Position numbers and translations under genes: made by a program. This document shows, piece by piece, positions 7,726-64,000 of a DNA stretch of 64,000 nucleotides. The DNA is taken from assembly GCF_018156225.1 (NCBI RefSeq), contig NZ_JAGTAR010000006.1, forward strand, positions 62,001 to 126,000, given 5' to 3'. Every line of letters begins with the position of its first letter. Position 1 is the stretch's first letter. Under the pieces are notes generated by a model. It saw only the letters and a program-made list of their open reading frames with translations, did not search any database and was not told the origin of the DNA. Source of the stretch: Carboxylicivirga sediminis. GTDB lineage: Bacteria; Bacteroidota; Bacteroidia; Bacteroidales; Marinilabiliaceae.

Positions 7726-7760
7726 CACCTACCAGAACAGAACACTTAATTTCGAATTTG

Positions 7761-8750: not shown

Positions 8751-8815
8751 CCATGATTCTTTTTTTTATAGATTTACACCATACCAGTACAGAACAGTAT
8801 ACTAAATCTCAAATC

Positions 8816-10294
8816 ATGTATTCATTAGGATTCGACATAGGAAGCTCATCGGTAAAAGTGGCATTGCTTGATGTAACAACAGGGAAAGCCCTCAGCACAG
8901 CGTTTTATCCAAAAGAAGAAATGGCTATCTCAAGCCCGCAGCCCGAATGGGCCGAACAAAATCCTGCGGATTGGTGGAACAACCTGAAACTGGCACTGAA
9001 AGATGTGCTGACCACATCCAACATTGACCCATCAGCAATTCATTCAATCGGCATCTCGTACCAAATGCATGGGCTGGTAACGGTTGATAAAAACGGAGAC
9101 ATACTAAGGCCTGCCATCATCTGGTGCGATAGTCGCGCTGTACAGTACGGCAACATAGCCTTTGATGAAATTGGTAAGGAGCACTGCCTCTCACACATGC
9201 TCAACTCACCGGGTAACTTCACGGCATCCAAGCTCAAGTGGGTGAAGGAAAATGAACCCGACACCTACGCGCGTATCAACAAAATAATGCTGCCAGGCGA
9301 TTACATTGCCTATCGATTAACCAATGAGCTAACCACCACCAAAAGCGGCTTATCAGAAGGCATCTTCTGGGATTTTAAGACACAAAGTGTATCAAAAGAA
9401 CTACTGGCTAACTATGGTTTTAAGACCGACATCATCCCCAGCATTAAAGACACCTTTGAAATACAGGGCTACCTGAGCGAACAAGCAGCTGAGGAGTTGG
9501 ATTTACCCACAGGTATAGCAGTGTCGTACCGCGCAGGCGACCAGCCCAACAATGCCTTAAGTCTAAATGTATTAAACCCGGGCGAGGTGGCTGCCACTGC
9601 CGGCACATCGGGAGTGGTGTATGGTGTTAGCGACCAGCTGAAGTATGATCCGGCATCACGCGTTAATACCTTTGCCCATGTCAACCACACCAATATAGAT
9701 AATCGTCTGGGAGTATTGCTTTGCATCAACGGCACAGGCATCCTGAACTCATGGCTGCGTAAAAACGTGGCGGCCGATTTAGACTATGTGCAAATGAACT
9801 GCGAAGCCTCAGTTATTGAACCGGGGAGCAATGGCCTGCTGGTATTTCCTTTTGGCAATGGCGCTGAGCGTGTATTACAAAACCAGAACCCCGGCGCAAC
9901 GGTTAAGCACCTGAATTTTAATATTCACACCCGCGCCCACCTGTTAAGAGCTGCCCAGGAAGGCATTGCCTTTAGTTTTATGTATGGCATGGAAGTGATG
10001 GAACAAACCGGCATTGCCACTAAAGTTATCAGAGCCGGCAAGGCCAATATGTTCCTGAGTCCGATATTTCGCCAGACACTGGCCGATATTTCGGGTGCCA
10101 CTATTGAACTGTACGAAACCAATGGCGCATTGGGTGCGGCGCGTGGAGCAGCCTATGGAGCCGGCCTATACAGCACACTCGAAGAGGCCTTTGCCTCTTT
10201 GGAGAAGGTGGAAATCATTAAGCCAATTGAGCGAAACACAAAATCTTTGAAAGCGGCTTACAAGAACTGGAAGCAGCAACTTAGCGAAGACTAA
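8816..10294 (+). CDS. xylB: Xylulokinase
   Basis: 492 residues from the ATG at 8816 (MYSLGFDIGSSSVKVALLD). A longer frame from 8753 adds 21 residues unlike the family. FGGY sugar kinase: phosphate-binding DIGSSSVKV at the N-terminus, GISYQMHGLV in the substrate region, IIWCDSRA, and the catalytic Asp in RAGDQPNNA at residue 242, followed by the ATP-site loop ATAGTSGVVYG. It phosphorylates D-xylulose to xylulose 5-phosphate in the cytoplasm, the second step after xylose isomerase, encoded two genes downstream. The length is normal for the Bacteroidetes enzyme. Confidence 0.95.
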   Translation: MYSLGFDIGSSSVKVALLDVTTGKALSTAFYPKEEMAISSPQPEWAEQNPADWWNNLKLALKDVLTTSNIDPSAIHSIGISYQMHGLVTVDKNGDILRPAIIWCDSRAVQYGNIAFDEIGKEHCLSHMLNSPGNFTASKLKWVKENEPDTYARINKIMLPGDYIAYRLTNELTTTKSGLSEGIFWDFKTQSVSKELLANYGFKTDIIPSIKDTFEIQGYLSEQAAEELDLPTGIAVSYRAGDQPNNALSLNVLNPGEVAATAGTSGVVYGVSDQLKYDPASRVNTFAHVNHTNIDNRLGVLLCINGTGILNSWLRKNVAADLDYVQMNCEASVIEPGSNGLLVFPFGNGAERVLQNQNPGATVKHLNFNIHTRAHLLRAAQEGIAFSFMYGMEVMEQTGIATKVIRAGKANMFLSPIFRQTLADISGATIELYETNGALGAARGAAYGAGLYSTLEEAFASLEKVEIIKPIERNTKSLKAAYKNWKQQLSED

Positions 10295-10366
10295 AGCGGT
10301 TAAGCTGCCAAATGTTAATCCTTCATCATATAATCCATCTAACGAATCACCTACACAAAATCCAAA

Positions 10367-12595
10367 ATGAAAAAACTCTTTATCGCCTGCTTATTTATAG
10401 TTTCGTTGTTAGTTGCTTGCAGCACCTCCAATCAGCAAACATCAAATCCAGTCCCTGCCCTGCCTGATTCATTGGCCGGCACATTCCTCGACCACCGTAT
10501 TGACATGGAAGAACGCCTGGATATGGTTATCAGTCAGCTATCGCTTGAGGAAAAATGTGCACAGCTGATGCACGACGCGCCAGGCATCGAACGCCTGGGT
10601 ATCAAACCCTACAACTGGTGGAACGAAGCGTTGCACGGTGTTGCCCGCATGGGACGCGCCACTGTTTTCCCGCAACCCATTGGCATGGCTTCCACCTTCG
10701 ATCCCTTGCTCATTGAAGATGTGGCTACTGCTATTTCTGATGAGGGACGGGCTAAATTCAACATCGCACAAAAAAACGGAAATTACCTGCAGTATGCCGG
10801 TTTAACCTATTGGTCGCCCAATGTAAATATCTTTCGTGATCCCCGCTGGGGACGTGGTATGGAAACATGGGGCGAGGACCCCTTCCTGAGTGGGACACTG
10901 GGCGGTGCCTTTGTAAAAGGCATACAGGGCTATGACCCCACCTACCTGAAAGCTGCCGCCTGTGCAAAACACTACGCCGTGCACAATGGCCCTGAAGGAT
11001 TAAGGCACAGCTTTAATGCCTATTCATCACCCAAAGATTTGTATGAAACATATCTGCCCGCCTTTAAGATGCTGGTTACGCAATACGATGTTGAAGCGGT
11101 GATGTGTGCCTATAACCGCACGCTGGATGTACCTTGCTGTGGAAGCACTTTACTGCTGACAGAGATATTGCGCAACAACTGGGGTTTTACGGGGCATGTC
11201 ATGTCCGACTGTGGTGCCTTAGCCAACTTCCATGGTTTACACCAGTATACAAGTGATGCAAAAGCATCGTCGGCCGAAGCCATTAAGCACGATGTGAGCC
11301 TTAACTGCGGCAGCACTTACCAAAACCTTGTGGAGACTGTACAAGCCGGACTGATTAGTGAAGCGGATATCGACCGAAACCTTCGCTTGCTATGGCGAAC
11401 TCGCTTTAAACTGGGCTTATTCGATCCTTATGGCGATAACCCATATAATCATCTGGGACCTGAGGTGGTTAACAGCAAACAAAACGTTGACCTGGCTCGC
11501 AAGGCGGCTCAAAAATCAGTTGTCCTGCTAAAAAACAACGGTGTTCTACCACTAAAAAAAGATATCAAACACCTGTTTGCCATTGGCCCCCTGGCGGCCG
11601 ATGTAGACGTGATGCTGGGCAACTATAATGGCATGTCAAACAATGTTGTCTCAGTCATTGAAGGCATTGCCGGAGCAGTGAGTCTGGGTACCCGTTTCGA
11701 ATACCGCCATGGTTTCTTGTTAACTGAAGAAAACAAGAACCCCATCGGCTGGGCCATAGGTGAAGCAAGAGGCGCCGAAGCCTGCATTGCAGTGGTTGGC
11801 ATCAACACACTGCTCGAAGGCGAAGAAGGGGAAGCCATTGGCTCGGCCCATAAAAGCGATCGCCCCGACCTCCAATTACCGGGCAAACAGGTGGACTATC
11901 TAAAGCAAATCCGCAAAGATCAGGACAAACCTTTAATTGTAGTGGTGATGGGTGGCAGCCCCATAGCCCTGGAAGAAGTGCATAAGATAGCCGATGCTGT
12001 TATCATGGCCTGGTACCCGGGCGAACAAGGTGGAAATGCCATTGCCGACATTATTTTTGGTGACGCAATACCTACTGGTAAACTACCGGTTACCTTCCCT
12101 AAATCCGTTAAGCAACTGCCGCCCTACGAAGATTACACCATGTATGGTCGCACCTACAAATACATGAAAGACGATCCCATGTATCCCTTTGGTTTTGGCC
12201 TCAACTATGCCGAAATCAGCTATTCAAACATAAGCAGCCAAAAAACAACATACCAGTTTGGCGAAGCCATTACGCTAACTGCCGATATCAGCAATGGCAG
12301 TGATTTTGATGCTGAAGAAACGGTGCAGCTATATATGTCTGCTTTGGATGCCGACTTTCCGGTGCCCATGTACGATCTGAAAGGATTCAAACGCGAAACG
12401 ATTAACGCCGGTGGCAGCACCCAGGTACGGTTCACCATCGATACATCAGAGCTGACCAATATTGATGAGAAAGGTGAAGAGCAACACGTTAAGGGGCGCT
12501 ATCGCTTTTATATCGGCAGCACCCTGCCATCGCAAAGAGCCATGGATTTGGGAGCACCTGAGGCCGTTATGTTAGAACTTGAAATAGAAGAGTAA
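10367..12595 (+). CDS. Glycoside hydrolase family 3 lipoprotein (likely beta-xylosidase)
   Basis: 742 residues. A lipoprotein signal ends in LLVAC (Cys about 18), so the enzyme is membrane-anchored, facing the periplasm or surface. The GH3 N-terminal barrel holds the nucleophile Asp281 in VMSDCGA. The substrate-binding KHYAVH segment lies near residue 206, then a GH3 C-terminal domain and a fibronectin-III-like domain (about 650-740). The EVMCAYNRTLDVPCCG-like segment is typical of the xylosidase/glucosidase clade. Its place between xylB and xylA supports release of xylose from xylo-oligosaccharides; beta-glucosidase or arabinofuranosidase activity cannot be excluded. Confidence 0.9.
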   Translation: MKKLFIACLFIVSLLVACSTSNQQTSNPVPALPDSLAGTFLDHRIDMEERLDMVISQLSLEEKCAQLMHDAPGIERLGIKPYNWWNEALHGVARMGRATVFPQPIGMASTFDPLLIEDVATAISDEGRAKFNIAQKNGNYLQYAGLTYWSPNVNIFRDPRWGRGMETWGEDPFLSGTLGGAFVKGIQGYDPTYLKAAACAKHYAVHNGPEGLRHSFNAYSSPKDLYETYLPAFKMLVTQYDVEAVMCAYNRTLDVPCCGSTLLLTEILRNNWGFTGHVMSDCGALANFHGLHQYTSDAKASSAEAIKHDVSLNCGSTYQNLVETVQAGLISEADIDRNLRLLWRTRFKLGLFDPYGDNPYNHLGPEVVNSKQNVDLARKAAQKSVVLLKNNGVLPLKKDIKHLFAIGPLAADVDVMLGNYNGMSNNVVSVIEGIAGAVSLGTRFEYRHGFLLTEENKNPIGWAIGEARGAEACIAVVGINTLLEGEEGEAIGSAHKSDRPDLQLPGKQVDYLKQIRKDQDKPLIVVVMGGSPIALEEVHKIADAVIMAWYPGEQGGNAIADIIFGDAIPTGKLPVTFPKSVKQLPPYEDYTMYGRTYKYMKDDPMYPFGFGLNYAEISYSNISSQKTTYQFGEAITLTADISNGSDFDAEETVQLYMSALDADFPVPMYDLKGFKRETINAGGSTQVRFTIDTSELTNIDEKGEEQHVKGRYRFYIGSTLPSQRAMDLGAPEAVMLELEIEE

Positions 12596-12718
12596 AGACA
12601 GAGGATAAAAGTACACAAAATACTAATCAAGAAAATTGGAGATCGGAGTCAATCAAGGCATTATCAGATTTATTAAACACAGGCAAAGTTTTGGTCTCCA
12701 ATAGTAAAACAACAAAAC

Positions 12719-14035
12719 ATGACAACAGGTAACGAGTTTTTTCCCAGCATTGGAAAAATTGCCTACGAAGGCAGAGATTCAAAAAATCCATTAGCATTCA
12801 GATGGTATAATCCGGAGCAGGTAATTGCCGGTAAAACAATGAAAGAACACTTGCGCTTTGCTATTGCCTACTGGCACACATTCTGTGGCGACGGTGGCGA
12901 TCCATTTGGTCCGGGCACGCAGGTTTTCCCTTGGGACAAAGGAAGTAACGCTATAGATAGATCTAAATACCGATTGGATGCGGCCTTTGAATTCTTCACA
13001 AAGATTGGAGCGCCTTTCTATTGCTTCCACGATACAGATGTAGTGGGTGATGGCACAGTGTTTGAAATCGAAGATCGCCTGGCTAAAATCATCCCAATCG
13101 CTCAGCAGTACCAAAAAGAAACAGGTGTGAACCTGCTATGGGGAACGGCCAATGTATTCTCTAATCCTCGCTACATGAATGGGGCATCAACCAATCCGGA
13201 CTTTACAGCGTTGGCACATGCAGGCACTCAGGTGAAAAACGCATTGGATGCAACCATCGCTCTGGGCGGTCAGAACTATGTATTCTGGGGTGGTCGAGAA
13301 GGCTATATGTCATTACTTAACACCAATATGAAAGCCGAAAAAGAGCATATGGCCCAGTTCTTGACCATGGCGCGCGATTACGCCCGAAAAAATGGCTTCA
13401 CAGGCAACTTCTTTATTGAACCTAAACCAATGGAGCCTTCAAAGCACCAGTACGATGTGGATGCTGAAACGGTGATTGGCTTCCTGCGCCACTACGGACT
13501 GGACAAAGACTTTAAACTCAATATTGAAGTCAACCACGCTACTTTGGCCCAACACTCCTTTGAGCACGAACTGCAATGCGCCGCCGATGCCGGTATGTTA
13601 GGATCCATTGATGCCAACAAAGGCGACTACCAAAACGGTTGGGACACCGATGAATTCCCAACCAGTATCCCCGAAACTGTGCAGGCCATGATGGTGATTC
13701 TGCAAGCTGGCGGCTTCCAGGGTGGCGGTATTAACTTCGATGCCAAAACGCGCCGTAACTCTACCGATCTGGAAGATATCTTTATCGCTCATGTATCGGG
13801 TATGGATACCTTTGCCCGTGCATTGGTAATTGCCGATGACATCCTGAATAACAGCGACTACCTAAAGCAAAAAGCTGATCGCTATGCCTCATTCGACAGC
13901 GGCAAGGGTGCCGAATTTGCTGCCGGCAAGCTAACAATGGAAGACTTGCGTTCCTACGCCAAAGAAGCGGGTGAACCAGCCATGATTAGCGGTAAGCAAG
14001 AGCGCTACGAGCAGTTAATTAACATGTATATTTAG
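12719..14035 (+). CDS. xylA: Xylose isomerase
   Basis: 438 residues, the length of class II xylose isomerases. It opens with [16 protein letters not shown], the class II signature. The catalytic His104 and Asp107 occur in YCFHDTDV, metal ligands in [15 protein letters not shown] and [10 protein letters not shown], and [16 protein letters not shown] near the end of the barrel. It converts D-xylose to D-xylulose in the cytoplasm using divalent metal ions. It has a 123-nt leader after the GH3 gene and a 173-nt spacer before the symporter. That spacer has an inverted repeat, AGTAAGATG (14073-14081) with 14129-14137, of unknown role. Confidence 0.97.
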
Positions 14036-14208
14036 TCAATAGTTATAGACAGTAGTGAGGCAGAAAACGTATAGTAAGATGTTAGTAGTGAGATAAGCTT
14101 TGTAAAAGAACATCAGTCTTGACACTTGCATCTTACTACTCGACACTTCCGTAAAACACTACTGACTACTGACTAAACACCACTAACTAAGCATTTAAAT
14201 CCGGTTTT

Positions 14209-15600
14209 ATGGAAAAACAACAAAACATCGGCTATATCATGCTGTTGACACTGGTTGCCACTTTAGGTGGCTTACTTTTTGGCTATGATACAGCTGTTAT
14301 ATCCGGGGCCGAAAAATCCATCCAGGCCTTTTTAATTCATGGACTTAATTTAAGCTCGTTTGCGCATGGCGCCACAGTTTCCAGCGCACTCATCGGCTGC
14401 ATCATTGGCGGGGCAATATCGGGACTGTTAGCCTCTCGCCTGGGCCGTAAAAAATCACTGATGGTAGCTGCAGTGCTATTCTTCATCTCCGCCTTAGGTT
14501 CGGGTCAGCCTGAATTCGTGTTCTTCGAAAAGGGAAAAGCTACCATGGGCTTACTATACATGTTTAACTTTTACCGGGTGATTGGCGGAATAGGTGTAGG
14601 ATTGGCATCGGCTATTAGTCCAATGTACATCAGCGAAATTGCACCAGCGCAAATTCGCGGCCGTCTGATTTCGTTTAATCAGTTTGCCATCATCTTTGGG
14701 ATGCTCGTAGTGTACTTTGTCAACTGGTCAATCGCCAAAGGGCAAACCATCGAATGGATCAACGGCATCGGCTGGCGTTACATGTTTATGTCGGAAGCCA
14801 TTCCGGCCGGCCTGTTTGGCATTCTGCTGCTATTTGTGCCCGAAACGCCGCGCTACCTCGCCATGCAAGGCCATCAGGATAAGGCCTTGACAATTCTGAA
14901 GCGCATTAACGGCCTGGATGCCGCCAAACGGATTCTAAAAGACATACAGAGTACGGTTGAAAAAGCCGCAGGCTCATCCAAGGTAATGGCCTATGGCAGG
15001 AAGGTGATTATCATTGGCATCTTATTATCCGTTTTTCAGCAATTTGTGGGTATTAACGTGGCCTTGTATTACGCACCACGCATCTTTGAAAGCATGGGAG
15101 CGGCCAAAGATGCCTCTATGCTGCAAACCATTGTAATGGGTTTAGTGAATGTTATTTTTACGGTTGTAGCCATTCTTACGGTTGATAAATGGGGCCGCAA
15201 GCCACTGTTGATAACTGGTTCGGTGGGTATGGCCATTGGTATGATGGCCATTGGCACTTTATCTTTCCTGGAGGTGATTGGTATTAGCACACTGGTTTTT
15301 ATCATCATCTATACCGCCTCATTTATGATGAGTTGGGGCCCCATTTGCTGGGTGCTGATTGGTGAGATTTTCCCTAACAAAATCCGTGGCAAAGCCATAG
15401 CCATAGCTGTAGCAGCACAGTGGGCAGCCAACTATTTTATTTCATCTACCTATCCGGCCATGATGGAGTTCAGCGGCGGCATGACTTACATGTTCTATGG
15501 TATAATGAGTATACTATCAGCCATTTTTGTTTGGAAGATGGTGCCCGAGACAAAAGGCAAATCATTGGAGGAAATGGAAGAAGTGATTGAGAAACTATAG
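14209..15600 (+). CDS. xylE: D-xylose/proton symporter (MFS sugar porter)
   Basis: 463 residues, about twelve membrane segments. Sugar-porter signatures are all present: GGLLFGYDTAVISGA in TM1, RLGRKKSL in the first cytoplasmic loop, PETPRYL after TM6, FQQFVGINVALYYAP in TM7, DKWGRKPLL in the second half and PETKGKSLEEME at the C-terminus. The QQFVGIN and RXGRR motifs match XylE/GLUT-type transporters. As last gene of the xylose operon it imports the pentose across the inner membrane with protons. An intrinsic terminator follows. Confidence 0.93.
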   Translation: MEKQQNIGYIMLLTLVATLGGLLFGYDTAVISGAEKSIQAFLIHGLNLSSFAHGATVSSALIGCIIGGAISGLLASRLGRKKSLMVAAVLFFISALGSGQPEFVFFEKGKATMGLLYMFNFYRVIGGIGVGLASAISPMYISEIAPAQIRGRLISFNQFAIIFGMLVVYFVNWSIAKGQTIEWINGIGWRYMFMSEAIPAGLFGILLLFVPETPRYLAMQGHQDKALTILKRINGLDAAKRILKDIQSTVEKAAGSSKVMAYGRKVIIIGILLSVFQQFVGINVALYYAPRIFESMGAAKDASMLQTIVMGLVNVIFTVVAILTVDKWGRKPLLITGSVGMAIGMMAIGTLSFLEVIGISTLVFIIIYTASFMMSWGPICWVLIGEIFPNKIRGKAIAIAVAAQWAANYFISSTYPAMMEFSGGMTYMFYGIMSILSAIFVWKMVPETKGKSLEEMEEVIEKL

Positions 15601-16572: not shown

Positions 16573-19500
16573 TTACTCTTCTATGACAATCCTAAACCCT
16601 ACATTATATACTTTTTGCCAGCTCTTGAAAGCCTTTCGGTGCGAAGAAGATGCCTTCTCGGGCCTGTCTCTCCAGGAACCTCCGCGAGCTACTTTATCAG
16701 CAGGCAACGTTCCAGCGTTTCGGCCGTCATTCTCCTTATAGGGATATGGCGCATAATCGGTACGCGTCCATTCAGCTACGTTTCCAATCATATCATATAA
16801 TCCCCATGGATTAGCTTCGTATTGACCTACTTCTGCTCCAAGCATGTTGCCATCGTCCACCGTTTTAGAACGAGGTATAAAATCAAAGTAAGGTCTCAGG
16901 TGGTGCTTTTCAGACATAGGTTTTGGGTCCACGCCTATCACTGCCATATTCGCCAACTGCTTATCGGCTAAATTGGCATAAGAAGAGAAGTTAGTATTAG
17001 ATTCCCCAAACCAGAAATCTTCTTCACTACCAGACCGGGCCGCCCATTCCCATTGTGCTTCAGTTGGCAAACTAACCTGCATACCTAACTGCTCGCTTAG
17101 TTTATCACAGAAAGCCATGGCCTCTTCCCAGCTAATACGAATAACTGGTTGATTGGGCATATTAGCCGGATATCCCGGATTAACATGATCTTTCCAGAAT
17201 TGAGCAATATAACGACTATCGTGCTCTGGCACCACTGCCGTATATTGTTCATTGGTCACTTCAAATGCACCCATCCAAAATGCCTTTTTCACCTTAACCT
17301 TTGAGCGGGGATATTCATCGATGTCTCCATTTTCTGAACCCATTACAAATGAACCGGATGGTATACGTACCATTTTCATAGTAACACCTGGTGCTAGTTC
17401 TATTACTTTTAAGGCATCGCCACCGTCGTTTTGACGTCTGCTTGCTGTTTTAGATGAGAATGGCCAATTACGCAACTTTGTTTGTTGATGCATGACAGGT
17501 TCTTCGGCTGGTGGCATGACTGGTTCTACCTCACCTTTAGCTGCTAATTTTTCAATGTAAGCATGTAATTCACCTTTCCAGTCTACTTTTACATTGTTGT
17601 ACTTCTCCATCAATTCCTGACGACGGTCCACCTGATTATAGCCACAGTATTCATTGGCATTAAACACACCATTATATGGGGCATTACAGTCAATCCATCT
17701 ATATAAGGTCTGCCATTCCTCATCACTCAGTTCAACATTGTGATGCCCCTTCTTAAGCATTTGCACTAAATCACTTGTATTAGCGTGGTACTCCATTGGC
17801 TTCATCACATAAATATCTGCTTCAGGCCCTTGTCTATTGATAAAAGGATGAAATGCCAGGTAGCTTTTACCAAACTTTGTCACTTTTTCAGGTGAGTTAT
17901 CTTTGAAATCAGGCAAATGATTCTTTCCATCATGACAAGCCACGCATCGCTTGTTAAGGATTGGTTGAATCTCATGTTCAAAAGTAATAGCTCTCACCCC
18001 ATCAAACGGAGGCGTCAGCTCACGGGGTTGCATTTTTGAGGCAATAGTAAATTTTGGTTTTGCAATGGTATTTTGGTTCTCGTGGCAACCTACACAAGAC
18101 ACCACCTCTCCCGGCATACCCGTGAGCCAGCTACGCATCAATTGAACAGCTGCTCCTTCGCCATCTAATGGCTGAATAGTAATTGGCATATTGGCAGGCA
18201 CTTTAAAGATGACCGAACCATCATCCTCAACAGGCACAGTACCTAATACACGCTTTATATCCCATCCACTTTGTATGCCATGCTCCATATGGCCTGATGG
18301 CGATTTGATATAGGCAAACTCATAGGCGATAATACGCAATTCTTTAATGGTTCCACGCGGCACACCTTTGGTCCCTGCTCCTTCATAAATATCCTGTATA
18401 TAAATGGTTGATTCAGTATCTTTAAGGTTCACCTTTTCAGGTATAACCGGTGGTGTTGTTTTTTTATGTACCGGAGTAGCCTCTGTAATACCTTCTCCTT
18501 CAAACTGAACAATCGGTGTAACATTATCGAAAATATCCACCAGGTATAAACCCCACAATGACTCAGGAGACATTTTGGCGGTTACTAAAAAGTATTCCTT
18601 GCTTAACGCACGTGGTTTGAGAAACTGAGGCCAAACACCATCTACCAGGCGATCTTTTATTTCAGGTACAACATATTTGTTGCGATAGGGTATTTCCTGC
18701 ACAACTCCTTTCTCTTCCTGGCGACCTTTTTTCGGATCGAATAATACCAGTCGGCCTGAACGCGCGATGCCATGGTGACCCGACACTATGGCTATGAACT
18801 GAGTATTGTCTTTACCGGGCAGCGGCTGCGCATCAAACATACTGTTTGGCCAGTAAGAACCACTTCCATATAGTTCCTTTTTATTGGTACCATCCGGATT
18901 CATGTGCATCATTATACGCGAAAAGTAGTGGGTATTATCGGTATACTCCCATCGCAAATACATCACACGTCCGTTGTTCATTACAATGGGGTCCCAATCG
19001 TTATCCTGTCCAAAGTTTAAGCGGCGTAAATCATGTGTTTTTGGATCATACAGGCAAATATTACCTACAATATCATTTCCGCTCACACAAGGTACTCCGT
19101 GATATCCAATATTGGATACGGCTAATATTTTACCATTCGGCAAATATGTTCCGTCGAAGAAGTTCAAATCTTTCTCTTCACTCTGTGTTACTTGGTGTAA
19201 TCCTGTGCCATCCGTTTTAACTTCAAACAGCTGCCAGGTATCATTATCTCCGACTGTTGTAAATAGTAAACGATCGGCGTCCCAGTGCAATTGCAAATCG
19301 CTTACTGGTGCACCATTATCTGGTTTATAAATTGTTTTGCTTTGTATTTGTCCTCGCAGATTGCTCAACTCTGTAATTTCACAGTCGAACCCATTCTTTC
19401 GCTGAGAGTTATGCCCCGACCAGTTATTACTTTGTGTTCCGATACCCGGTCCCATCTCTATTCGGGCATTATTCTTTAGCTTATGACGAACAACAAGGAT

Positions 19501-20595
19501 TCTATCCATATCCAAAAGTGGGTTGGCCAGTAAAATCTCTCTCCTGGCTGACAGAATCTTCTCAGCATCAACAAAAGCTTGCTGTTCTTCCGTGTATATT
19601 CCTTTTTGAACCAGGGGCAGCAAATGACTAATTTCTTTTAGCATAGACGTATAACGGGTCGTATCGAAATTGGCATCTTGCTTCATATTTTCAACCGCCA
19701 ATTGAATCGACTCCGGCTTGACCCATTCAAGCTCTTCCTGCAAAGAATACACATTCAATACACGCTTAAAAAGCTGCAGGCAGGCTTCTATTTTTTTGTC
19801 TTTCGCCAAAGCACTCACCCTCCTCATCTCCTTCTGAAAATGAGCTGGTTCTTCAAGTTTGGCAATGAGGTTTTTCAAAGCCGCCTCTTCTTCCTGACCA
19901 TCATATGAGGTAAGCCAGATATCAGCTTCGGTGTTGGCATGACTTAAAAAGTAACGCATTTCCTCAGGAAAATCCTGAGACAGACGATTAGCTATAGCAG
20001 AAGTGGTAATATTCTGTACTTTAAAAATGACTGATGACGATTTATTTCCAAGGTTTTCAATCCCTACCTCTGCCTCAAATCGATCGTATTGACCATCCAA
20101 TTCAACAATCAACTCCCCATTACCATGGGTGTAAATACCTCGATCATATTGTTTCCCCGCAATAATAATTGGCTTATGCTGTTTGTTCTGATTTCGGGTA
20201 GGATGACCAAATTGGGCGTATTCTTTCTTAAATTTCATTTCATCAAGCCAAACAGTTTCACCCGACTTGGTGATCAGTTTGGCATTTACCCAGGCACTAT
20301 GATCATTTCGTGTTCCATCCTTGGTTCCCCAAGTAATTAAAACCAGCTGTTTTAACTGCGAAACATTTAATGATATTTTTCTTGGCTGCTCACCCTTTCT
20401 GACAACATCAGTGGAAAATGGCAAATTATGCTCACTAAAAGTCTGCTGCACCCTTGCCTTTGTTTGCAGAACAGCACTGGCCCAGTCCTCTGCGCGCATA
20501 TATACCTTATCAGCTGTTTGAGACCACCCGCTTTGAAATGCAATTATGAGCCCTAGAATAGCTACAATTTGTTTTAATGTAAATTTCTTTTTCAT
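16573..20595 (-). CDS. Exported multidomain protein: NPCBM, propeller, hydrazine-synthase-alpha-like, cytochrome c, SUMF1-like
   Basis: 1340 residues with a Sec signal (residues 1-25, ending SGWSQ). Domains in order: an NPCBM/NEW2-like carbohydrate-binding domain (about 70-198, with YDRGIYTHG); a helical region (200-350); a TolB/WD40-like beta-propeller (about 365-715); a segment like the middle of hydrazine synthase alpha (about 725-845) with heme motif CVGCH at 834-838; a second heme motif CVACH at 884-888; and a C-terminal SUMF1/EgtB/PvdO-type domain (about 1065-1340; MVRIPSGSFVMGS, LPTEAQWEWAAR, DMIGNVAEWT, RGGSWRD). The catalytic cysteines of true formylglycine-generating enzymes are missing. 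It is last in the minus-strand cluster. Related multidomain proteins occur in Planctomycetes and Bacteroidetes without known function. It probably acts in the periplasm with c-type hemes. I infer redox chemistry on a sugar-like ligand, but nothing fixes the substrate. Confidence 0.8.
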   Translation of the reverse strand: MKKKFTLKQIVAILGLIIAFQSGWSQTADKVYMRAEDWASAVLQTKARVQQTFSEHNLPFSTDVVRKGEQPRKISLNVSQLKQLVLITWGTKDGTRNDHSAWVNAKLITKSGETVWLDEMKFKKEYAQFGHPTRNQNKQHKPIIIAGKQYDRGIYTHGNGELIVELDGQYDRFEAEVGIENLGNKSSSVIFKVQNITTSAIANRLSQDFPEEMRYFLSHANTEADIWLTSYDGQEEEAALKNLIAKLEEPAHFQKEMRRVSALAKDKKIEACLQLFKRVLNVYSLQEELEWVKPESIQLAVENMKQDANFDTTRYTSMLKEISHLLPLVQKGIYTEEQQAFVDAEKILSARREILLANPLLDMDRILVVRHKLKNNARIEMGPGIGTQSNNWSGHNSQRKNGFDCEITELSNLRGQIQSKTIYKPDNGAPVSDLQLHWDADRLLFTTVGDNDTWQLFEVKTDGTGLHQVTQSEEKDLNFFDGTYLPNGKILAVSNIGYHGVPCVSGNDIVGNICLYDPKTHDLRRLNFGQDNDWDPIVMNNGRVMYLRWEYTDNTHYFSRIMMHMNPDGTNKKELYGSGSYWPNSMFDAQPLPGKDNTQFIAIVSGHHGIARSGRLVLFDPKKGRQEEKGVVQEIPYRNKYVVPEIKDRLVDGVWPQFLKPRALSKEYFLVTAKMSPESLWGLYLVDIFDNVTPIVQFEGEGITEATPVHKKTTPPVIPEKVNLKDTESTIYIQDIYEGAGTKGVPRGTIKELRIIAYEFAYIKSPSGHMEHGIQSGWDIKRVLGTVPVEDDGSVIFKVPANMPITIQPLDGEGAAVQLMRSWLTGMPGEVVSCVGCHENQNTIAKPKFTIASKMQPRELTPPFDGVRAITFEHEIQPILNKRCVACHDGKNHLPDFKDNSPEKVTKFGKSYLAFHPFINRQGPEADIYVMKPMEYHANTSDLVQMLKKGHHNVELSDEEWQTLYRWIDCNAPYNGVFNANEYCGYNQVDRRQELMEKYNNVKVDWKGELHAYIEKLAAKGEVEPVMPPAEEPVMHQQTKLRNWPFSSKTASRRQNDGGDALKVIELAPGVTMKMVRIPSGSFVMGSENGDIDEYPRSKVKVKKAFWMGAFEVTNEQYTAVVPEHDSRYIAQFWKDHVNPGYPANMPNQPVIRISWEEAMAFCDKLSEQLGMQVSLPTEAQWEWAARSGSEEDFWFGESNTNFSSYANLADKQLANMAVIGVDPKPMSEKHHLRPYFDFIPRSKTVDDGNMLGAEVGQYEANPWGLYDMIGNVAEWTRTDYAPYPYKENDGRNAGTLPADKVARGGSWRDRPEKASSSHRKAFKSWQKVYNVGFRIVIEE

Positions 20596-20652
20596 TATTC
20601 AATTTTTTCTTGTGCAACAAACACTCTATTAGCTTTAGGTCTGCAGGCAGAT

Positions 20653-21555
20653 TCAACGCAGATATGTTAAATGCCAGTGCGGATCAATGGTTGAAATAAG
20701 TCCTAAATTATCTTTATCCTCCAGTTTCCAGATAACATTTGCATCCGAATCAATCTCAACAACCGAAGCTGTTGGCTGACTATTACGGGCATGACCTCCC
20801 CAGTTACAAATAATGGTATGCCCATTCTCAAGTCTGATTGCCTCGGCCACATATTGCAAGGCAACGCTATCGATATCATATTCATTTACCTCCCAAATCA
20901 CTTCACTGGTTTGTGGGTTAATTTCGACTAAACGATGTGCATCGCCCAAAGAAACCAGCCAATTATTACTTGGCAGTACAACTAATGAAAATGGAACGCC
21001 GCCAACTTTAACGACCTGTTGCAAATGGCCATCCTCATTATATTCATGCACCTCACCATTACTTAATATTGGAACTAAGTATGTTCCCTTTTCTGTTTTA
21101 CGAATTCTTCTAAATTGTGAATGAGGCTTCTTAATCCCTGTATTAAACACCAGCTCCTTCAGTTTATCACCTTGTGGCGTAAACTCCATTATTTTAGCCG
21201 GACAACCACATTGCCCCAGGAGGTAGTTGCCTTCCTTAGTTACAGATGCTGATTGCAGCTCGGTTCCTTCTGGTGCCATATATTCCCACACTACTTCATG
21301 CCTGGCGGTAATCACCTTGGCTCCAGTTCGGTGTGCATACAGGATATTTCCATTTGCTAATTCTGTTACTTCATTGCACTCCTGATCCTTTTCAAGCTTA
21401 TGCCGCCAAAGAATATGACCATTTTTATCAGTCTTTACGATTTCATCCCAGCCTGAACCGGCCATAAGCATCGTTGGTGTATCGTTATGACACCCCATGA
21501 CTAAGGTTGCCAAAATCAACAATGTTATCCTCCACGATATAGGTATTCCATTCAT
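20653..21555 (-). CDS. Beta-propeller lipoprotein
   Basis: 300 residues from the ATG at 21555 (MNGIPISWRITLLIL); the frame can start six codons earlier but this start places the signal peptide correctly. Lipobox LVMGC with Cys22. The body consists of repeated blade-like units: GWDEIVKTDKNGHILWRHK, GNILYAHRTG, GNYLLGQCG, GEVHEYNEDGHLQ, HRLVEINPQTSEVIWE and TASVVEIDSDANVIWK, resembling PQQ/arylsulfotransferase-type propellers. No catalytic motif is recognisable. It is 57 nt upstream of the large heme protein start and belongs to the same cluster, so it may be a binding or scaffold partner. Confidence 0.75.
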   Translation of the reverse strand: MNGIPISWRITLLILATLVMGCHNDTPTMLMAGSGWDEIVKTDKNGHILWRHKLEKDQECNEVTELANGNILYAHRTGAKVITARHEVVWEYMAPEGTELQSASVTKEGNYLLGQCGCPAKIMEFTPQGDKLKELVFNTGIKKPHSQFRRIRKTEKGTYLVPILSNGEVHEYNEDGHLQQVVKVGGVPFSLVVLPSNNWLVSLGDAHRLVEINPQTSEVIWEVNEYDIDSVALQYVAEAIRLENGHTIICNWGGHARNSQPTASVVEIDSDANVIWKLEDKDNLGLISTIDPHWHLTYLR

Positions 21556-21683
21556 ATTATTAGCAAATAGCATTTAGCAAAACTCCTGCGATTCCTGTTC
21601 AGTCGCTTTTTTCCTCCACCAATAGCAATAGGGAGAGGCTGGTACATCAGCTTCCCGGCCTGTTCCATTTTCACCCCTGAGGG

Positions 21684-22394
21684 CTATACATTACCAAGTA
21701 TGTCAGTAAATGATACGTTGGGATTTGTAAATCTTAAGCCATTTCCGTCATGATAATTAGCATACTCTGACACAATAGCTCCTTCTGCCCCAGCCATCAT
21801 AAAGTGAGGCGCTTCAGCTCTGTTCAAGGTATTAATACCATTACATTTTAATTCAACAACGTTATTTACTGTGATAAATTCCTTCTGGCTCACTGGTGTA
21901 GGTGGGTTGTTAGGCGTTTCATCACCCTCACCAAATGTAAAGATTGTTCCCTGGCGTACATGCCAGGATTCCATCTTAGCCGGATGCTCGGTTTCTACAT
22001 GTTGATGCTCTACAATCATTTGACCGGGCAATAAAAAGATTTCATGTGCAAAGTAGCCATGTTTTGCATCGTTGTACCAAAATACACCCGCCATACCGAC
22101 ATTTTCAAAATCCCCGAGGCCAAAATCTGTAATGAACATGTTTGTCAATAAGAACTCATCTAACGGATAATTGTAATGCGCAAACATTTCCTTGTAAGCC
22201 TGAAGTGCTTTATCTGCACTTAATTGTCCATTGACATAGTAATCATCATTTGTATATCTCTTCACCATCTTTGTGCATGTTTTTTCACATTCTTTCTCTT
22301 TTACAGCAGTGCTTGCACATGAGTTGCTGACACTTGCTGCAACCACTCCTACAGAGCCTAAGGCCGTCATTTTAAGGACATCTCTCCTTTTCAT
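21684..22394 (-). CDS. Tat-exported cupin, D-lyxose isomerase-like
   Basis: 236 residues. The N-terminus MKRRDVLKMTALGSVGVVAA is a twin-arginine signal. The rest is a single cupin barrel with candidate metal ligands H130 and H132 (VEHQHVET), E142 and the late His in APHFMMAG. It ends with GAIVSEYANYHDGNGLRFTNP, very like the GAVVSEFST...FTDP end of D-lyxose ketol-isomerases. Known lyxose isomerases are cytoplasmic, so a Tat-exported relative is unusual; another sugar or sugar acid may be the substrate. It lies in the IclR-headed cluster, 43 nt after the Rid-family gene. The class is fairly clear, the activity is not. Confidence 0.7.
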   Translation of the reverse strand: MKRRDVLKMTALGSVGVVAASVSNSCASTAVKEKECEKTCTKMVKRYTNDDYYVNGQLSADKALQAYKEMFAHYNYPLDEFLLTNMFITDFGLGDFENVGMAGVFWYNDAKHGYFAHEIFLLPGQMIVEHQHVETEHPAKMESWHVRQGTIFTFGEGDETPNNPPTPVSQKEFITVNNVVELKCNGINTLNRAEAPHFMMAGAEGAIVSEYANYHDGNGLRFTNPNVSFTDILGNV

Positions 22395-22437
22395 ATCATT
22401 AATTTTATTGTTATTCTCTTTTTTCTATTCTTAACCG

Positions 22438-23565
22438 TTACACTACCGATAGCGAGAAAACTGATTCTATTTCAACCAATAGCTCATCCCTACATATATC
22501 GGACAATAAGTAGCTAACATTGGCGGCAGCATTGTATTGGGAACACACCGCTCTAATCTCTTCAAAATCCTCTTCATGTTTGATATACACCCTTAACATT
22601 TCCAGGTCCCTTACACCTGAAACTGGAGTTACTGTATTATCCGTCGACACCAAATGACTGATATTTTCGAGTGTTAGTTGCGTTTGCCTGGCAGCATTAC
22701 CTGCTCCAAGACTACTCTCTCCTCTTATGGCTGCCGTGCCAGAGACATAGACTAATGCCTTATTGAGATTCCCAATATATTTAGCCCGTTCAAACTTGGG
22801 CGTGGTTTTGATTCCTCTATTCTGGTCTTCTGCTCCAATTAAAACTCCCTGCGTGTAAGCATGGGCATCAATCTGAAGAGGGTTGGTTAATGGAAGATCC
22901 TGATCAACTCCTGAAACAGCCAGACAATCGACCACTATACCACCTGCCTTCATACCAATACCAGTTGCTGCCGGAAATCCATTGGGCCAATCTGTCATTT
23001 CATAAAACGAAGTGCGTTCATCGTTAAATAACTGGTAGCGTTGCGACTCACCATCCAAATCAGTAATGCACTCAATATAGTTCCATTGTCTAACAATAGA
23101 ATTTATAGGCATTCCCTCACATTCAAGAATGCTTTTGATTGTGTGAAAAATCTGGTTGGCTTGTTGCCTTACACTCAAATGTAGAGGTGCCGACACACCA
23201 GATAAGTGCAATTCACAATACTCCTCCTTAATGACTTTTGCATATGATATACCATGATTTTTTTTAAAGATAAGTTGGGTATTTAAGCAACAAGGTACCT
23301 GTACCACTTCAAGTACCATTTTTGAATCCAGTGGTTTTTGCGCAATAAAACTAATAGATGGTTGATTGTTGCCGAATCGTTCGGCAGCAGTAGCTAATAG
23401 TCGCCTTTTATCATCTACATATCCTTCGTTCCCGTCAGGATTCCAGAAAACAGCTATGCGTAGAATACCCTCATCTGCAATTAATTGCCTAATACAGTCA
23501 TTAAACATATCAACAACATTGGTACTAATGGTTGACTTTACAATATGATAGTCAGCTTTAAACAT
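22438..23565 (-). CDS. Rid (YjgF/YER057c/UK114)-superfamily protein, chorismatase-like size
   Basis: 375 residues, no signal peptide, so it is cytoplasmic. The C-terminal half (about 200-375) has Rid-type features, including NKALVYVSGTAAIRGE, which aligns with the conserved VSGT strand of RidA-like folds, and FYEMTDWPNGFPAATGIGM. The N-terminal half has a weaker related pattern. Two-domain members of this size include FkbO/Hyg5-type chorismatases and uncharacterised Rid proteins. I cannot tell whether the enzyme acts on an enamine/imine intermediate or is a hydrolase of another kind. It is 19 nt from the propeller/cytochrome gene and within the same transcription unit, the only clearly cytoplasmic enzyme of the cluster. 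Confidence 0.7.
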   Translation of the reverse strand: MFKADYHIVKSTISTNVVDMFNDCIRQLIADEGILRIAVFWNPDGNEGYVDDKRRLLATAAERFGNNQPSISFIAQKPLDSKMVLEVVQVPCCLNTQLIFKKNHGISYAKVIKEEYCELHLSGVSAPLHLSVRQQANQIFHTIKSILECEGMPINSIVRQWNYIECITDLDGESQRYQLFNDERTSFYEMTDWPNGFPAATGIGMKAGGIVVDCLAVSGVDQDLPLTNPLQIDAHAYTQGVLIGAEDQNRGIKTTPKFERAKYIGNLNKALVYVSGTAAIRGESSLGAGNAARQTQLTLENISHLVSTDNTVTPVSGVRDLEMLRVYIKHEEDFEEIRAVCSQYNAAANVSYLLSDICRDELLVEIESVFSLSVV

Positions 23566-23584
23566 CTAATATTTAAGTTTTAGG

Positions 23585-25369
23585 CTAAAGTGATTTAACA
23601 TACTCAATTAAATCCTCCATCTCTTTCTTCTTTAGTTTTTGCCTTTCCAAACCGTGTTTAAAATCCTTTAATAAGATTTCTATACTCTCGGCACGACCAT
23701 CGAAAAGATAAGGAGCTGTTCGCCACACTTCTTTGAGTGTAGGCGTATCCCAACCCTTCTCAAATTCAAAAGAGCCAATTTTGTGCATCTGCATATCAGT
23801 ATATAGCGGTCCGCTGTGACAATAATTACAGCTAGCTTTCTGAAATACTTTTTTACCTCGTTTTGCCTTTTCACTTAAATTCCCTTGTTCGAGATAAGGA
23901 CTCGGCAATGGCCTAAGTGAATTCAGGTAAGCATCAACAGCCTTTGCATCCTCTTCACCTATTTCGGCAAATTGAATATGCTTAAATCCAGCTCTAACAG
24001 CCGTTTCGGCATCAGGTCTGATACCCGAAATCATAGCAGGTGCAGTTTGATGAGCATAAAGTAGACTTTTACAGTTCTTTGGATTCCCAATTCCATCATT
24101 CAGAAGATCCCAATTCATTCCATCAGAACGGGCATCCCCCGGGTGACACCCATTGCATGATTGCCAGCCTTGAAAACAGTGTGATGCATCGTTAAAGATT
24201 CGCTCTCCTCTCCTTTCAATGGTTTCTTTCAAATTAGGATTAAGGGCATGCGTATAAATCTGCCGACTAACCAGGTCTATAACATTAAGCGTATCAGAAA
24301 AATAGGTTGGCACAACAGCCTGCTCACCATCTAATAATAATGAACGTGGCCCATTACCAACAACTTTTAACCGATACCGTATATCCGTGAAAAACCGCAA
24401 ATCGTATGAGAGTTCTTCCTTTTTATCTGTTTGTTCAAACTTGTTAATAAATGCCGCGTAATCTATTACACTGATATCATGTGTTCCAGAATGACTGATA
24501 AGCATTTTATCAGCATCGCAGGATACATCCCAGATTCCGGCAGCACCATACTCGGGTTCATCTAACAGCACTGTGCCCAAATAGGATTGTGACGCCGTGT
24601 GTATGATACTTAATCCACTGGTGTTCATCCATCCTTGTTGCAATTGTGAGGTTGGCACCTGAAAACGCCCTAAATTATGCGTGATAAAAATATACCTGCC
24701 ATCTGAGGAAATACAAATACCTCTCAACGCATTACTCCCATTTGCCAAAGCAATGTCTTTAACGCGTTTCATTGTTTTAGTATCTACAACAGACACCTTG
24801 GCAGTCACCACCTCAACATCGGCTCGTTGAGCAGGTAAAAAATTAGTAACGTATAAGTATTTCCCATCATTGCTCAAAACAGCCCCTACAGGTTCTCTTA
24901 ACAAAGAGACATTCCGCTTTACCTTATTGGAAATCAAATCAATCTCAGCCAGTGAGTTATCGTATTGGCAACAAACATACAGCTTTGCTCCATCATGGCT
25001 TAATACCGGACTAGTTGCACCCATTGGAACATTTATCTCAATGATCTTTTCCTTAGATAAAATATCAATAACAGTTACTAAACCTGTTGCATAGGAACTG
25101 GTAACATAGGCACGTCCATCTTTAACCACCACTCCTGTTGGCTCATCATTAAAAAACCATCGGTGATTCATTTGGTAATCTTCTCTTGATAATAGGTCAA
25201 GTCTTTTAGCCGTTTTCTGCAGTAAGAAAAGATATTCTCCCGTTTCATCGCTTGCAACATCTGTGGTTGACAAAGGACCATTCACTACATGTTGTCCTAA
25301 CACGTTGTCACAGTTTCCAACGATGCATAAAACAGAAATAATAAGAGTCGCTATTTGAGCATTTTTCAT
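23585..25369 (-). CDS. Exported YVTN beta-propeller fused to a di-heme cytochrome c
   Basis: 594 residues with a Sec signal (about 1-25). Residues 30-385 form a YVTN/YncE-type seven-bladed propeller with repeats such as GEYLFLLQKTAKRLDLLSR, GAKLYVCCQYDN and GKYLYVTNF. The C-terminal third resembles MauG/cytochrome c peroxidase, with heme-binding CNGCH at 405-409 and CNYCH at 514-518, plus WDTPTLKEVWRTAPYLFDGR, a segment typical of that family. In the periplasm it could receive electrons from, or modify, a partner. It starts 22 nt after the IclR gene and carries the cluster's second pair of hemes. A substrate cannot be named. Confidence 0.82.
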   Translation of the reverse strand: MKNAQIATLIISVLCIVGNCDNVLGQHVVNGPLSTTDVASDETGEYLFLLQKTAKRLDLLSREDYQMNHRWFFNDEPTGVVVKDGRAYVTSSYATGLVTVIDILSKEKIIEINVPMGATSPVLSHDGAKLYVCCQYDNSLAEIDLISNKVKRNVSLLREPVGAVLSNDGKYLYVTNFLPAQRADVEVVTAKVSVVDTKTMKRVKDIALANGSNALRGICISSDGRYIFITHNLGRFQVPTSQLQQGWMNTSGLSIIHTASQSYLGTVLLDEPEYGAAGIWDVSCDADKMLISHSGTHDISVIDYAAFINKFEQTDKKEELSYDLRFFTDIRYRLKVVGNGPRSLLLDGEQAVVPTYFSDTLNVIDLVSRQIYTHALNPNLKETIERRGERIFNDASHCFQGWQSCNGCHPGDARSDGMNWDLLNDGIGNPKNCKSLLYAHQTAPAMISGIRPDAETAVRAGFKHIQFAEIGEEDAKAVDAYLNSLRPLPSPYLEQGNLSEKAKRGKKVFQKASCNYCHSGPLYTDMQMHKIGSFEFEKGWDTPTLKEVWRTAPYLFDGRAESIEILLKDFKHGLERQKLKKKEMEDLIEYVKSL

Positions 25370-25391
25370 AGTACACTTACATTAACCAGAA

Positions 25392-26183
25392 TTAATTATC
25401 GAATCCCCATAAACGAGAGATTGCCAAGCCTGCTTCTTTCAATATTCTTCCAGTCTTATCAAAATCTTCATGCGGTAATCTTGCAGAAGGGGCTGTTACC
25501 CAAAGTGCCGCGATAGGGTAGCCATACTGATTAAAGATTGGTGCACCTACACAATGCACACCATCTAATTCTTCAGCATGATCAAAGCTATAACCACAAC
25601 TTTTCACCTGAATTAACTCCTTCAAATAGTGACTCTTTGTAGTGATAGTATTGTTGTTAAATTTTTCAAAACCCATCCGTGCTATAATAACTTCTTGCTC
25701 ACTTGGCGGCATAAAAGCAATAATCGCTTTGCCTGGTGCAGAAGCATGCAGATTGAAGCGCTTGCCAATCTTCAGCATAAAGGTAAAAGGATGAAGCCCG
25801 AGTACCTGTTCCAGTAGAACGCCCTGCTGATCTGCCAAAGAACCTAATAATACCGTTTCCTTTAACTCGTCTCTTATCTGGCGCATTACCGGCAAACTAT
25901 TTTCAACTAAACTTGATTCTGAAAGAGTTGATAAACCGATATGAAGAAATTTTTTGGATAGAATAAAACGCGAAGGCTGCTCACATTTTATCAAATATTT
26001 TCGGTCAACTAACGTTTGTGTTATGCGGAAAAGTGAACTTTTAGGAAAACCTAATTTATCTTGCAATTCAGCCAAAGTAAGTCCATGCGAGTACTCCATT
26101 AACAATTCAATAATGGTCAATGCTCGCTCTAAGTTAGGAACAGAATAGTTCTTTTCATCATCCTTTGTATTTTGAAGTTTCAT
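25392..26183 (-). CDS. IclR-family transcriptional regulator
   Basis: 263 residues. N-terminal winged helix (about 15-75; LERALTIIELLMEYSHGLTL, then GFPKSSLFRITQTLV) and an IclR effector domain (about 90-258) with LHASAPGKAIIAFMPP, the conserved HLTAxGKA-like segment, and SFDHAEELDGVHCVGAPIF. Regulators of this class bind small acids or sugar acids and often control catabolic genes. It is the first gene of the minus-strand cluster, so it probably autoregulates and controls all six genes. A TATTTTTG -7 box on the minus strand (26219-26226) lies about 35 nt upstream. The 300-nt spacer to the divergent gene (26184-26483) shows no other feature. Confidence 0.92.
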   Translation of the reverse strand: MKLQNTKDDEKNYSVPNLERALTIIELLMEYSHGLTLAELQDKLGFPKSSLFRITQTLVDRKYLIKCEQPSRFILSKKFLHIGLSTLSESSLVENSLPVMRQIRDELKETVLLGSLADQQGVLLEQVLGLHPFTFMLKIGKRFNLHASAPGKAIIAFMPPSEQEVIIARMGFEKFNNNTITTKSHYLKELIQVKSCGYSFDHAEELDGVHCVGAPIFNQYGYPIAALWVTAPSARLPHEDFDKTGRILKEAGLAISRLWGFDN

Positions 26184-52344: not shown

Positions 52345-52373
52345 TATTACAATAACATCTTTTTTAAATAGAA

Positions 52374-53939: not shown

Positions 53940-53996
53940 AAAATATGATGACTGATTTTATTCTTGAATCAATATAAAAGTTTCTAAAAACTATAT

Positions 53997-54932: not shown

Positions 54933-54998
54933 ACCAAAAGATTAATTAGAACTTAAGAAACACCTTATACGGATAAATTGTCACTTTATATTACTTCA

Positions 54999-61517: not shown

Positions 61518-64000
<2,483 letters not shown>

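Follow-up and report, generated by a model that had tools for sequence, protein, structure and literature searches.

We found that a six-gene cluster of Carboxylicivirga sediminis encodes homologues of hydrazine synthase (HZS), the signature enzyme of anaerobic ammonium oxidation (anammox), whose origin is an open question. The cluster occupies 16573..26183 on the minus strand of the window, that is, the whole 64,000-nucleotide stretch analysed here (positions 62,001 to 126,000 of contig NZ_JAGTAR010000006.1); NCBI places Carboxylicivirga in Bacteroidota, Bacteroidia, Marinilabiliales. By sequence, the cluster encodes an IclR-family regulator, a chorismatase-like protein and a cupin whose lyxose-isomerase-type metal site is intact, besides alpha-type and fused beta-gamma-type homologues bearing four heme motifs, and the set is conserved among relatives. 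We tentatively read it, at slightly less than an even chance, as a single catabolic operon for a sugar-like compound, organized around an exported four-heme oxidoreductase that would share the ancestry and layout of HZS and perform other chemistry.

In the list of open reading frames (ORFs) and translations of the window, the six ORFs follow one another in the same orientation between 26183 and 16573 and are separated, in gene order, by 22, 19, 43, 110 and 57 bases. This agrees with the initial annotation, a reading of the letters alone, which had described six minus-strand genes with short spacers. A divergent CoA-binding gene flanks the cluster on one side and a convergent zinc-ribbon gene on the other. 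Scanning for promoter- and terminator-like sequences was uninformative (28 promoter-like sites against 30.6 expected; 11 terminator-like sites against 7.4 expected).

Hydrazine synthase homologues and their partner proteins

P0005 (23585..25369, minus strand; 594 aa) combines a beta propeller with a MauG/CCP-like di-heme domain. It matched the NCBIfam model of the hydrazine synthase fusion (NF052342, hydrazine_BC) at 2.2e-32, with 112 bits against a cut-off of 1250, and the single-subunit gamma and beta models at 2.2e-20 and 1.6e-19, respectively. Consistently, a 42-row profile retrieved the beta and gamma chains of HZS (5c2v_B, 5.3e-29; 5c2v_C, 7.7e-27); the S-layer propeller 1l0q outscored both in the same search (7.5e-39), over the propeller part only. 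On these matches, P0005 is a homologue of fused HZS beta-gamma subunits. The initial annotation had correctly recognized a YVTN propeller plus two CxxCH motifs and had missed this identity. Among the matches listed, the closest named relative of the protein is from Carboxylicivirga mesophila (92% identity). The gammaI-type heme motif spans residues 405–409 (24143..24157, minus strand) and the gammaII-type motif residues 514–518 (23816..23830, minus strand); C405, C408, H409, C514, C517 and H518 were present in all 81 aligned sequences.

P0001 (16573..20595, minus strand; 1340 aa) is alpha-like and comprises NPCBM, propeller, HZS_alpha middle, cytochrome c and FGE-like domains. The middle domain (residues 748–839; 18079..18354, minus strand) matched PF18582 at 1.4e-35 over its full length (1–98 of 98), and a six-row alpha-core profile aligned piecewise along 5c2v_A at 5.1e-30, the C-terminal cytochrome part included. 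The alphaI-type motif (residues 834–838; 18082..18096, minus strand) aligned to CSGCH of 5c2v_A, and the alphaII-type motif (residues 884–888; 17932..17946, minus strand) to the C-terminal cytochrome part; H838 and H888 were kept in 58/58. All 58 long alpha sequences carry exactly two CxxCH motifs and share invariant C503, H556, H607 and H608, C503 lying in the propeller. With a full-length HZS_alpha domain beside a beta-gamma homologue, the window holds a whole alpha and beta-gamma set. Its four CxxCH motifs, two each in P0001 and P0005, equal the number of candidate heme sites counted by the initial annotation. NCBIfam scores for alpha, beta and gamma were far below the curated cut-offs (52 of 800, 70 of 560 and 73 of 625 bits, respectively), so the window proteins are best described as HZS homologues, not family members.

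Two additions distinguish P0001 from HZS alpha. An N-terminal NPCBM domain of carbohydrate-binding type (residues 114–193; 20017..20256, minus strand) matched PF08305 at 3e-26, and the region is occupied in 45 of the 58 long sequences. At the C-terminus lies an FGE/SUMF1-like domain (residues 1074–1337; 16585..17376, minus strand; PF03781, 5.7e-43). The active-site cysteines of FGE follow a C-terminal RGGS motif. No cysteine follows RGGSW in the window protein or in 50 of 54 alphas, and the other 4/54 have one somewhere after RGGS; we rejected a catalytic FGE role, and the domain is probably non-catalytic. Separately, two ORFs (708 and 638 aa) together make up alpha in a locus from a metagenome-assembled genome (MAG; L014/L100), which may reflect a sequencing error or a pseudogene, and two pieces also occur in L047, L053 and L081.

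The cupin (21684..22394, minus strand; 236 aa) resembles D-lyxose isomerases (PDB 2y0o, 1e-14; 7nzo, 1e-13). By alignment, its H130, H132, E142 and H197 correspond to the Mn ligands H75, H77, E88 and H143 of the lyxose isomerase TsLI (PMC8378251), and each is kept in at least 90% of 51 sequences. With K86 and E156, the protein retains six of the eight named TsLI active-site positions; it departs at K62 (His117) and D163 (Gly217). Signal peptides, lipoboxes and twin-arginine motifs in window proteins were assigned by eye, and on this basis P0005 and the cupin are exported, the latter with a twin-arginine-type leader. Only 3 of the 51 cupins carry an RR motif, whereas a crude pattern detected a lipobox-like site in 46; export is thus general, and Tat export was rejected as a family trait.

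P0004 (22438..23565, minus strand; 375 aa), which the initial annotation had called a Rid-family protein, does have the Rid fold; we rejected a plain Rid protein in favour of a chorismatase-like member of FkbO/Hyg5 type. It matched TIGR04444 at 8.4e-38 (130.4 bits, under the cut-off of 325) and PDB 5ag3 at 2e-23, with residues 144–369 aligned. Our reading of the alignment places E365 at the position of Hyg5 Glu334, to which the consulted part of PMC7170507 assigns the role of catalytic Glu; E365 and C358 are each kept by 90% or more of 57 sequences. No signal peptide was seen by eye in P0004.

The remaining two genes encode the IclR-family regulator, first in the unit (25392..26183, minus strand; 263 aa; IclR_C, 1e-37; HTH_IclR, 1e-12), and a Mala s 1-like beta-propeller protein (20653..21573, minus strand; 306 aa; PF22701, 3.5e-48; 3no2, 3.9e-67), a probable lipoprotein with the lipobox-like LVMGC. 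Pfam and PDB matches therefore bore out the regulator, the NPCBM, HZS_alpha and FGE-like domains, the lyxose-isomerase-like cupin and the propeller protein of the initial annotation.

Conservation of the set and longer operons in relatives

Conservation was examined in 100 genomes (the window's own and relatives), 295 genomes of the order (its own included) and 395 genomes of the phylum, the order and phylum draws being even samples. At 1e-20, the 100-genome set yielded 9 genomes with the beta-gamma query and 10 with the alpha query, and E ≤1e-100 gave the identical 7 genomes for both. Among the 295 order genomes, beta-gamma (1e-100) was found in 15 and the alpha core (1e-60) in 14; all 14 were common to both, and G624 had beta-gamma only. 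Beta-gamma (1e-60) was found in 2 of the 395 phylum genomes, both from the window's order.

A scan of named records took the best 80 of at least 520 relatives, a sample that favours nearer relatives, is not random and perhaps leaves out the window's own record; these loci come from Carboxylicivirga, Bacteroides, Parabacteroides, Alistipes, Rikenella and related MAGs. Partners were counted by tblastn (1e-6) in 52 of these 80 loci, those whose flanks reach 9.5 kb or more past beta-gamma and 1.5 kb or more ahead of it, counts for far-downstream genes being lower bounds. The core partners were alpha (52 loci), cupin (47), chorismatase-like (41), IclR (32) and propeller (at least 21); additional partners were a DhaK-like gene (41), a gene for a 104-aa protein (41), a DhaL-like gene (28), CcsBA (26) and LsrF (at least 22). 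All counted partner genes lie on the beta-gamma strand, and gene order is similar across the 52 loci. Locus clusters were first drawn with a crude longest-ORF caller, which misses genes in GC-rich loci and gave lower counts for most families. These counts across genomes and loci indicate that the grouping is not due to chance. Conserved co-occurrence, on which the initial annotation had staked its grouping, was thus seen both in the 14 shared genomes and in the partners across the 52 loci. Divergence of five partners also tracked that of beta-gamma (r = 0.86–0.93, with none of 500 permutations as high).

Two orders are common among the longer operons. The first is IclR, beta-gamma, chorismatase-like, cupin, alpha, CcsBA, 104-aa protein, DhaK, DhaL, LsrF and propeller; the second lacks CcsBA and ends with propeller and alpha. 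CcsBA combines Cytochrom_C_asm and ResB, which serve cytochrome c assembly, and its presence in 26 of the 52 loci gives independent support to covalent hemes. No Pfam family matched the 104-aa protein; its label, VOC, was a guess by eye. No transporter gene is a member of the operon.

LsrF of one relative (G012) scored 451 bits with the equivalog model (cut-off 297) and matched PDB 3gkf at 2e-103. We also looked for LsrF beyond the locus flanks in 19 named genomes, a test that did not include locus L048. It was found as a single copy in all 10 tested genomes that have a DhaK-like gene and whose locus ends at or soon after it, 0.5–1.1 kb past the flank by coordinates, from which the same contig was inferred, and with the propeller gene adjoining in 9 of the 10. 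LsrF had no match in C. mesophila or in the other 8 tested genomes whose locus lacks a DhaK-like gene. The window's own genome gave no match at 1e-10 to either LsrF or the DhaK-like gene, and each occurs in only 2 of 7 kin genomes; LsrF is present in G012 and G082 and was not found in G000, G004, G011, G022 and G070.

Several observations concern the surroundings of such sets. Some loci lie next to glycoside hydrolase (GH) genes (GH31, GH36, GH95, GH39, GH2 or GH116) or a sulfatase gene. In L065, L066, L068, L074 and L099 a long protein lies upstream (1386 aa in L074), resembling by eye a hybrid two-component regulator, with no IclR match and with GH31/GH36-type genes beside it; L082 has glycosidase genes without the long regulator. 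G004, which shows four alpha matches at 1e-20, holds a second kind of set (L017, C16), made up of beta-gamma, a shorter alpha of 825 aa, a weak propeller match, Fe-ADH, DeoC above cut-off, an FGGY kinase and a chorismatase-like gene.

Elsewhere in the window, a plus-strand sugar-type cluster (7758–15600) encodes a GntR-type regulator with a periplasmic-binding-like domain, an FGGY kinase, a GH3 enzyme, a xylose-isomerase-like TIM barrel protein (under the Pfam cut-off) and an MFS sugar transporter. We did not keep these genes as part of the operon; the MFS and TIM-barrel genes adjoin it in the near relative L012 and are absent from the 1.4 kb beside it in L013. A beta-galactosidase-like ORF (61518–63848, minus strand) starts inside its catalytic domain and ends with an F5/8 type C domain; its N-terminal part would be located at the edge of the window or past it. 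Flippase-like, sulfatase-family, GT8 and CAAX-protease genes follow one another at 51088–55898 (plus strand), in the window's most AT-rich stretch (GC 0.33, 52–56 kb).

Proposed pathway and rival readings

DhaK-type kinases act on 1-hydroxy-2-ketones, and LsrF cleavage requires a beta-diketone phosphate, R-CO-CHOH-CO-CH2OP. With the cupin, DhaK and LsrF placed in a pathway, the role remaining for the alpha/beta-gamma complex would be that of a hydroxyl oxidant. In the mechanism we propose, the complex would bind carbohydrate via NPCBM and oxidize one hydroxyl, its hemes relaying the electrons to an acceptor in the periplasm. By aldose–ketose isomerization, the cupin would then shift the carbonyl, turning a 4-keto aldose into a 2,4-diketo sugar, a 1-hydroxy-2-ketone. 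In relatives with long operons the product would enter the cell, where DhaK/DhaL would phosphorylate C1 and the thiolase LsrF, with CoA, would release dihydroxyacetone phosphate (DHAP) and an acyl-CoA; the chorismatase-like and 104-aa proteins may act on enol or dicarbonyl forms. In the window genome, where nothing beyond the core module was found, later steps would need to differ or to depend on other genes; since LsrF and the DhaK-like gene are unmatched there, the core module alone would have to be useful. That this whole scheme is an undescribed periplasmic pathway, in which an HZS-type four-heme complex oxidizes a sugar, an exported cupin forms a 2,4-diketo sugar and DhaKL with LsrF, where present, yield DHAP and acyl-CoA, its genes residing in Bacteroides, Parabacteroides, Alistipes, Rikenella and Carboxylicivirga, is possible but doubtful, less probable than the broader reading of the cluster as a sugar-type operon.

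The initial annotation had proposed a periplasmic oxidation or isomerization of a sugar-like or aromatic substrate. The co-directional unit, exported heme proteins and isomerase-like cupin support it, and the substrate is probably sugar-like. Its further idea, that the substrate is used in place, appears doubtful for relatives, since a DhaK-type kinase in 41 of the 52 loci and LsrF in at least 22 of them and in 10 of 10 genomes with that kinase gene searched past the flank suggest that it is taken up and cleaved intracellularly; in the window genome, which has neither, the substrate may still be used in place.

Several points weigh against the sugar-operon reading and its extension into a pathway. 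The chain of oxidation, isomerization and cleavage is itself inferred from gene content, residues and conservation, and gene content does not fix the redox direction, the substrate or the electron acceptor. The chain does not explain the role of the chorismatase-like protein, and a crude test found a hydrophobic N-terminal stretch in 14 of 59 members of that family, so its cytoplasmic place is not certain. IclR matches are absent from 20 of the 52 loci, and the operon's lack of a transporter gene likewise counts against it. Common vertical descent can yield the observed r values, and co-divergence therefore speaks for joint inheritance only. Because LsrF occurs in 2 of 7 kin genomes and is absent from 9 of the 19 named genomes tested, the DHAP/acyl-CoA end is not universal, and the window genome falls among those without a match. 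Finally, the residues at the gammaI site match neither His144 of HZS nor the Trp that PMC12758564, in the part consulted, reports for CCP/MauG and HZS-like clades I–III.

Scavenging of autoinducer-2 (AI-2) would account for part of the operon: the cupin would isomerize 4,5-dihydroxy-2,3-pentanedione (DPD), DhaKL would phosphorylate it and LsrF would release DHAP and acetyl-CoA. The equivalog match of LsrF fits this scheme, as does the known reaction of the enzyme, which splits phosphorylated AI-2 into DHAP and acetyl-CoA (PMC7828210, part consulted). However, LuxS was matched in only 1 of 16 genomes tested, one of the 10 with LsrF among them, while the control search matched in 5 of 14; most hosts would thus lack LuxS-made AI-2, the substrate is probably not AI-2 of the cell's own making, and host-made AI-2 as substrate is weakened. 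Moreover, AI-2 handling does not need a heme oxidoreductase, some loci have glycoside hydrolase genes next to them, and LsrF was not found in the window genome. We consider AI-2 scavenging unlikely.

Slightly less probable again is that beta-gamma is a MauG-like maturase using peroxide or oxygen to build an amino-acid cofactor in the alpha-like or propeller protein, which would be the true sugar dehydrogenase. Weaker matches of P0005 to TTQ_mauG (2e-10) and an MbnH-type model (1e-8) and its position next to propeller proteins are in line with this, as are two cysteines flanking the gammaI motif, C433 (78/81) and the invariant C398 (81/81), seven residues ahead of the motif. C398 could possibly form a third thioether or a disulphide. 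The HZS fusion model nevertheless scored far better (2e-32), and alpha has two heme motifs of its own in 58 of 58 long sequences. Peroxide chemistry is less to be expected in Bacteroides and Parabacteroides, which are gut anaerobes.

A true hydrazine synthase, or another N–N or nitric oxide (NO)/hydroxylamine enzyme that would reduce NO to hydroxylamine and condense it with an amine, would fit the complete alpha/beta-gamma homology, the four heme motifs and the alignment of the beta stretch around the blade-six loop. The residues argue otherwise. HZS residue roles were taken from the parts consulted of PMC12607021 and PMC12758564, and chain-to-protein offsets of 27 (alpha) and 39 (gamma) were set by matching published CxxCH positions. 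For alphaTyr591, the heme alphaI ligand in HZS (PMC12607021), no counterpart was seen: in 67 of 68 alphas with C[VITS]GCH, the eight positions after the His of the first heme motif (H+1 to H+8) contain no Tyr. GammaHis144 aligned to Ile447, and gammaCys165, which makes the third heme bond, to Gln466 or, in the 42-row-profile alignment, to an insertion; counterparts of both are absent. The second ligand of heme alphaII, alphaHis772, aligned to residue 952, which is His in 30 of 58, and a one-residue shift would keep it, as the neighbouring H951 is present in 58/58. The stretch with the zinc-site alphaCys303 lies outside the coverage of the 5c2v_A alignment; according to the same part of PMC12758564, this residue is not retained in all anammox bacteria. 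The conserved partner genes, furthermore, are of sugar type. A search for HAO-type octaheme proteins matched 0 of 15 genomes and its control also 0 of 14, so absence is not shown by it. By the residues compared, the window complex, which is HZS-like in build, is not a hydrazine synthase, and a nitrogen enzyme of this kind is very improbable.

A loose association of unrelated periplasmic genes, suggested by the many loci missing IclR, propeller or LsrF, is just as improbable given the uniform strand and similar order in 52 loci and the sharing of beta-gamma by 14 of 14 alpha genomes.

If the proposed pathway holds, it would be the first non-nitrogen function for the HZS fold and would point to carbohydrate oxidation as the source from which hydrazine synthase was recruited. 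As the sugar-type operon is common to culturable gut genera, Bacteroides and Parabacteroides, the function of the fold becomes testable there. The partner genes also hint at the class of substrate and at a product (DHAP plus acyl-CoA), and may expose a previously unknown sugar route in common gut bacteria.

Comparison with known systems

The anammox complex HzsABC (PDB 5C2V) shares with the window set an alpha subunit made of a propeller, an HZS_alpha middle and a C-terminal cytochrome, a beta propeller, a di-heme gamma and close gene spacing. As reported for Ca. Scalindua japonica (PMC12758564, part consulted), beta and gamma are fused. Unlike HzsABC, the set lacks equivalents of alphaTyr591, gammaHis144 and gammaCys165, has extra NPCBM and FGE-like domains, and has IclR, cupin and chorismatase-like genes as operon partners, joined in relatives by DhaKL/LsrF.

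Pairs of HZS-like alpha and fused beta-gamma are already in print: Hagglund et al. 2025 (PMC12758564, as far as consulted) described clades I–IV outside anammox bacteria, with no known job. Like these, the window set has alpha and fused beta-gamma co-located and key active-site residues lost. The co-located sets in that part of the paper come from Planctomycetota, Desulfobacterota and a few others, with Bacteroidota mentioned for the beta-gamma tree, and the words 'isomerase' and 'IclR' are absent from its main text as consulted. We recognized no publication on the operon context of the pair in the literature searched; the conserved sugar-type context would be the new part. One of our loci (L018) has an FG-GAP gene upstream of alpha and two substrate-binding proteins downstream, which fits the clade III description in the same source. 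In L018, a DAHP synthase above cut-off adjoins the HZS-like genes; L019 resembles this locus in layout, by ORF lengths, and both loci carry a 190-aa chorismatase-like piece.

Long-operon relatives resemble E. coli lsr (LsrK/LsrG/LsrF) in having an LsrF equivalog match after kinase genes. They differ from it in the DhaK/DhaL-type kinase and in the heme oxidoreductase and exported cupin within the operon, and the window genome is without LsrF. P0004 keeps the catalytic Glu and nearby Cys of FkbO/Hyg5 chorismatases, but it scores under the family cut-off, its N-terminus is unmatched, and the window operon has no further chorismate gene. The cupin, in turn, shares its metal ligands and six of the eight named active-site residues with the D-lyxose isomerases of B. 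subtilis (2y0o) and Thermofilum (7nzo), from which it differs in being exported and in its length, 236 aa against 175 in 2y0o.

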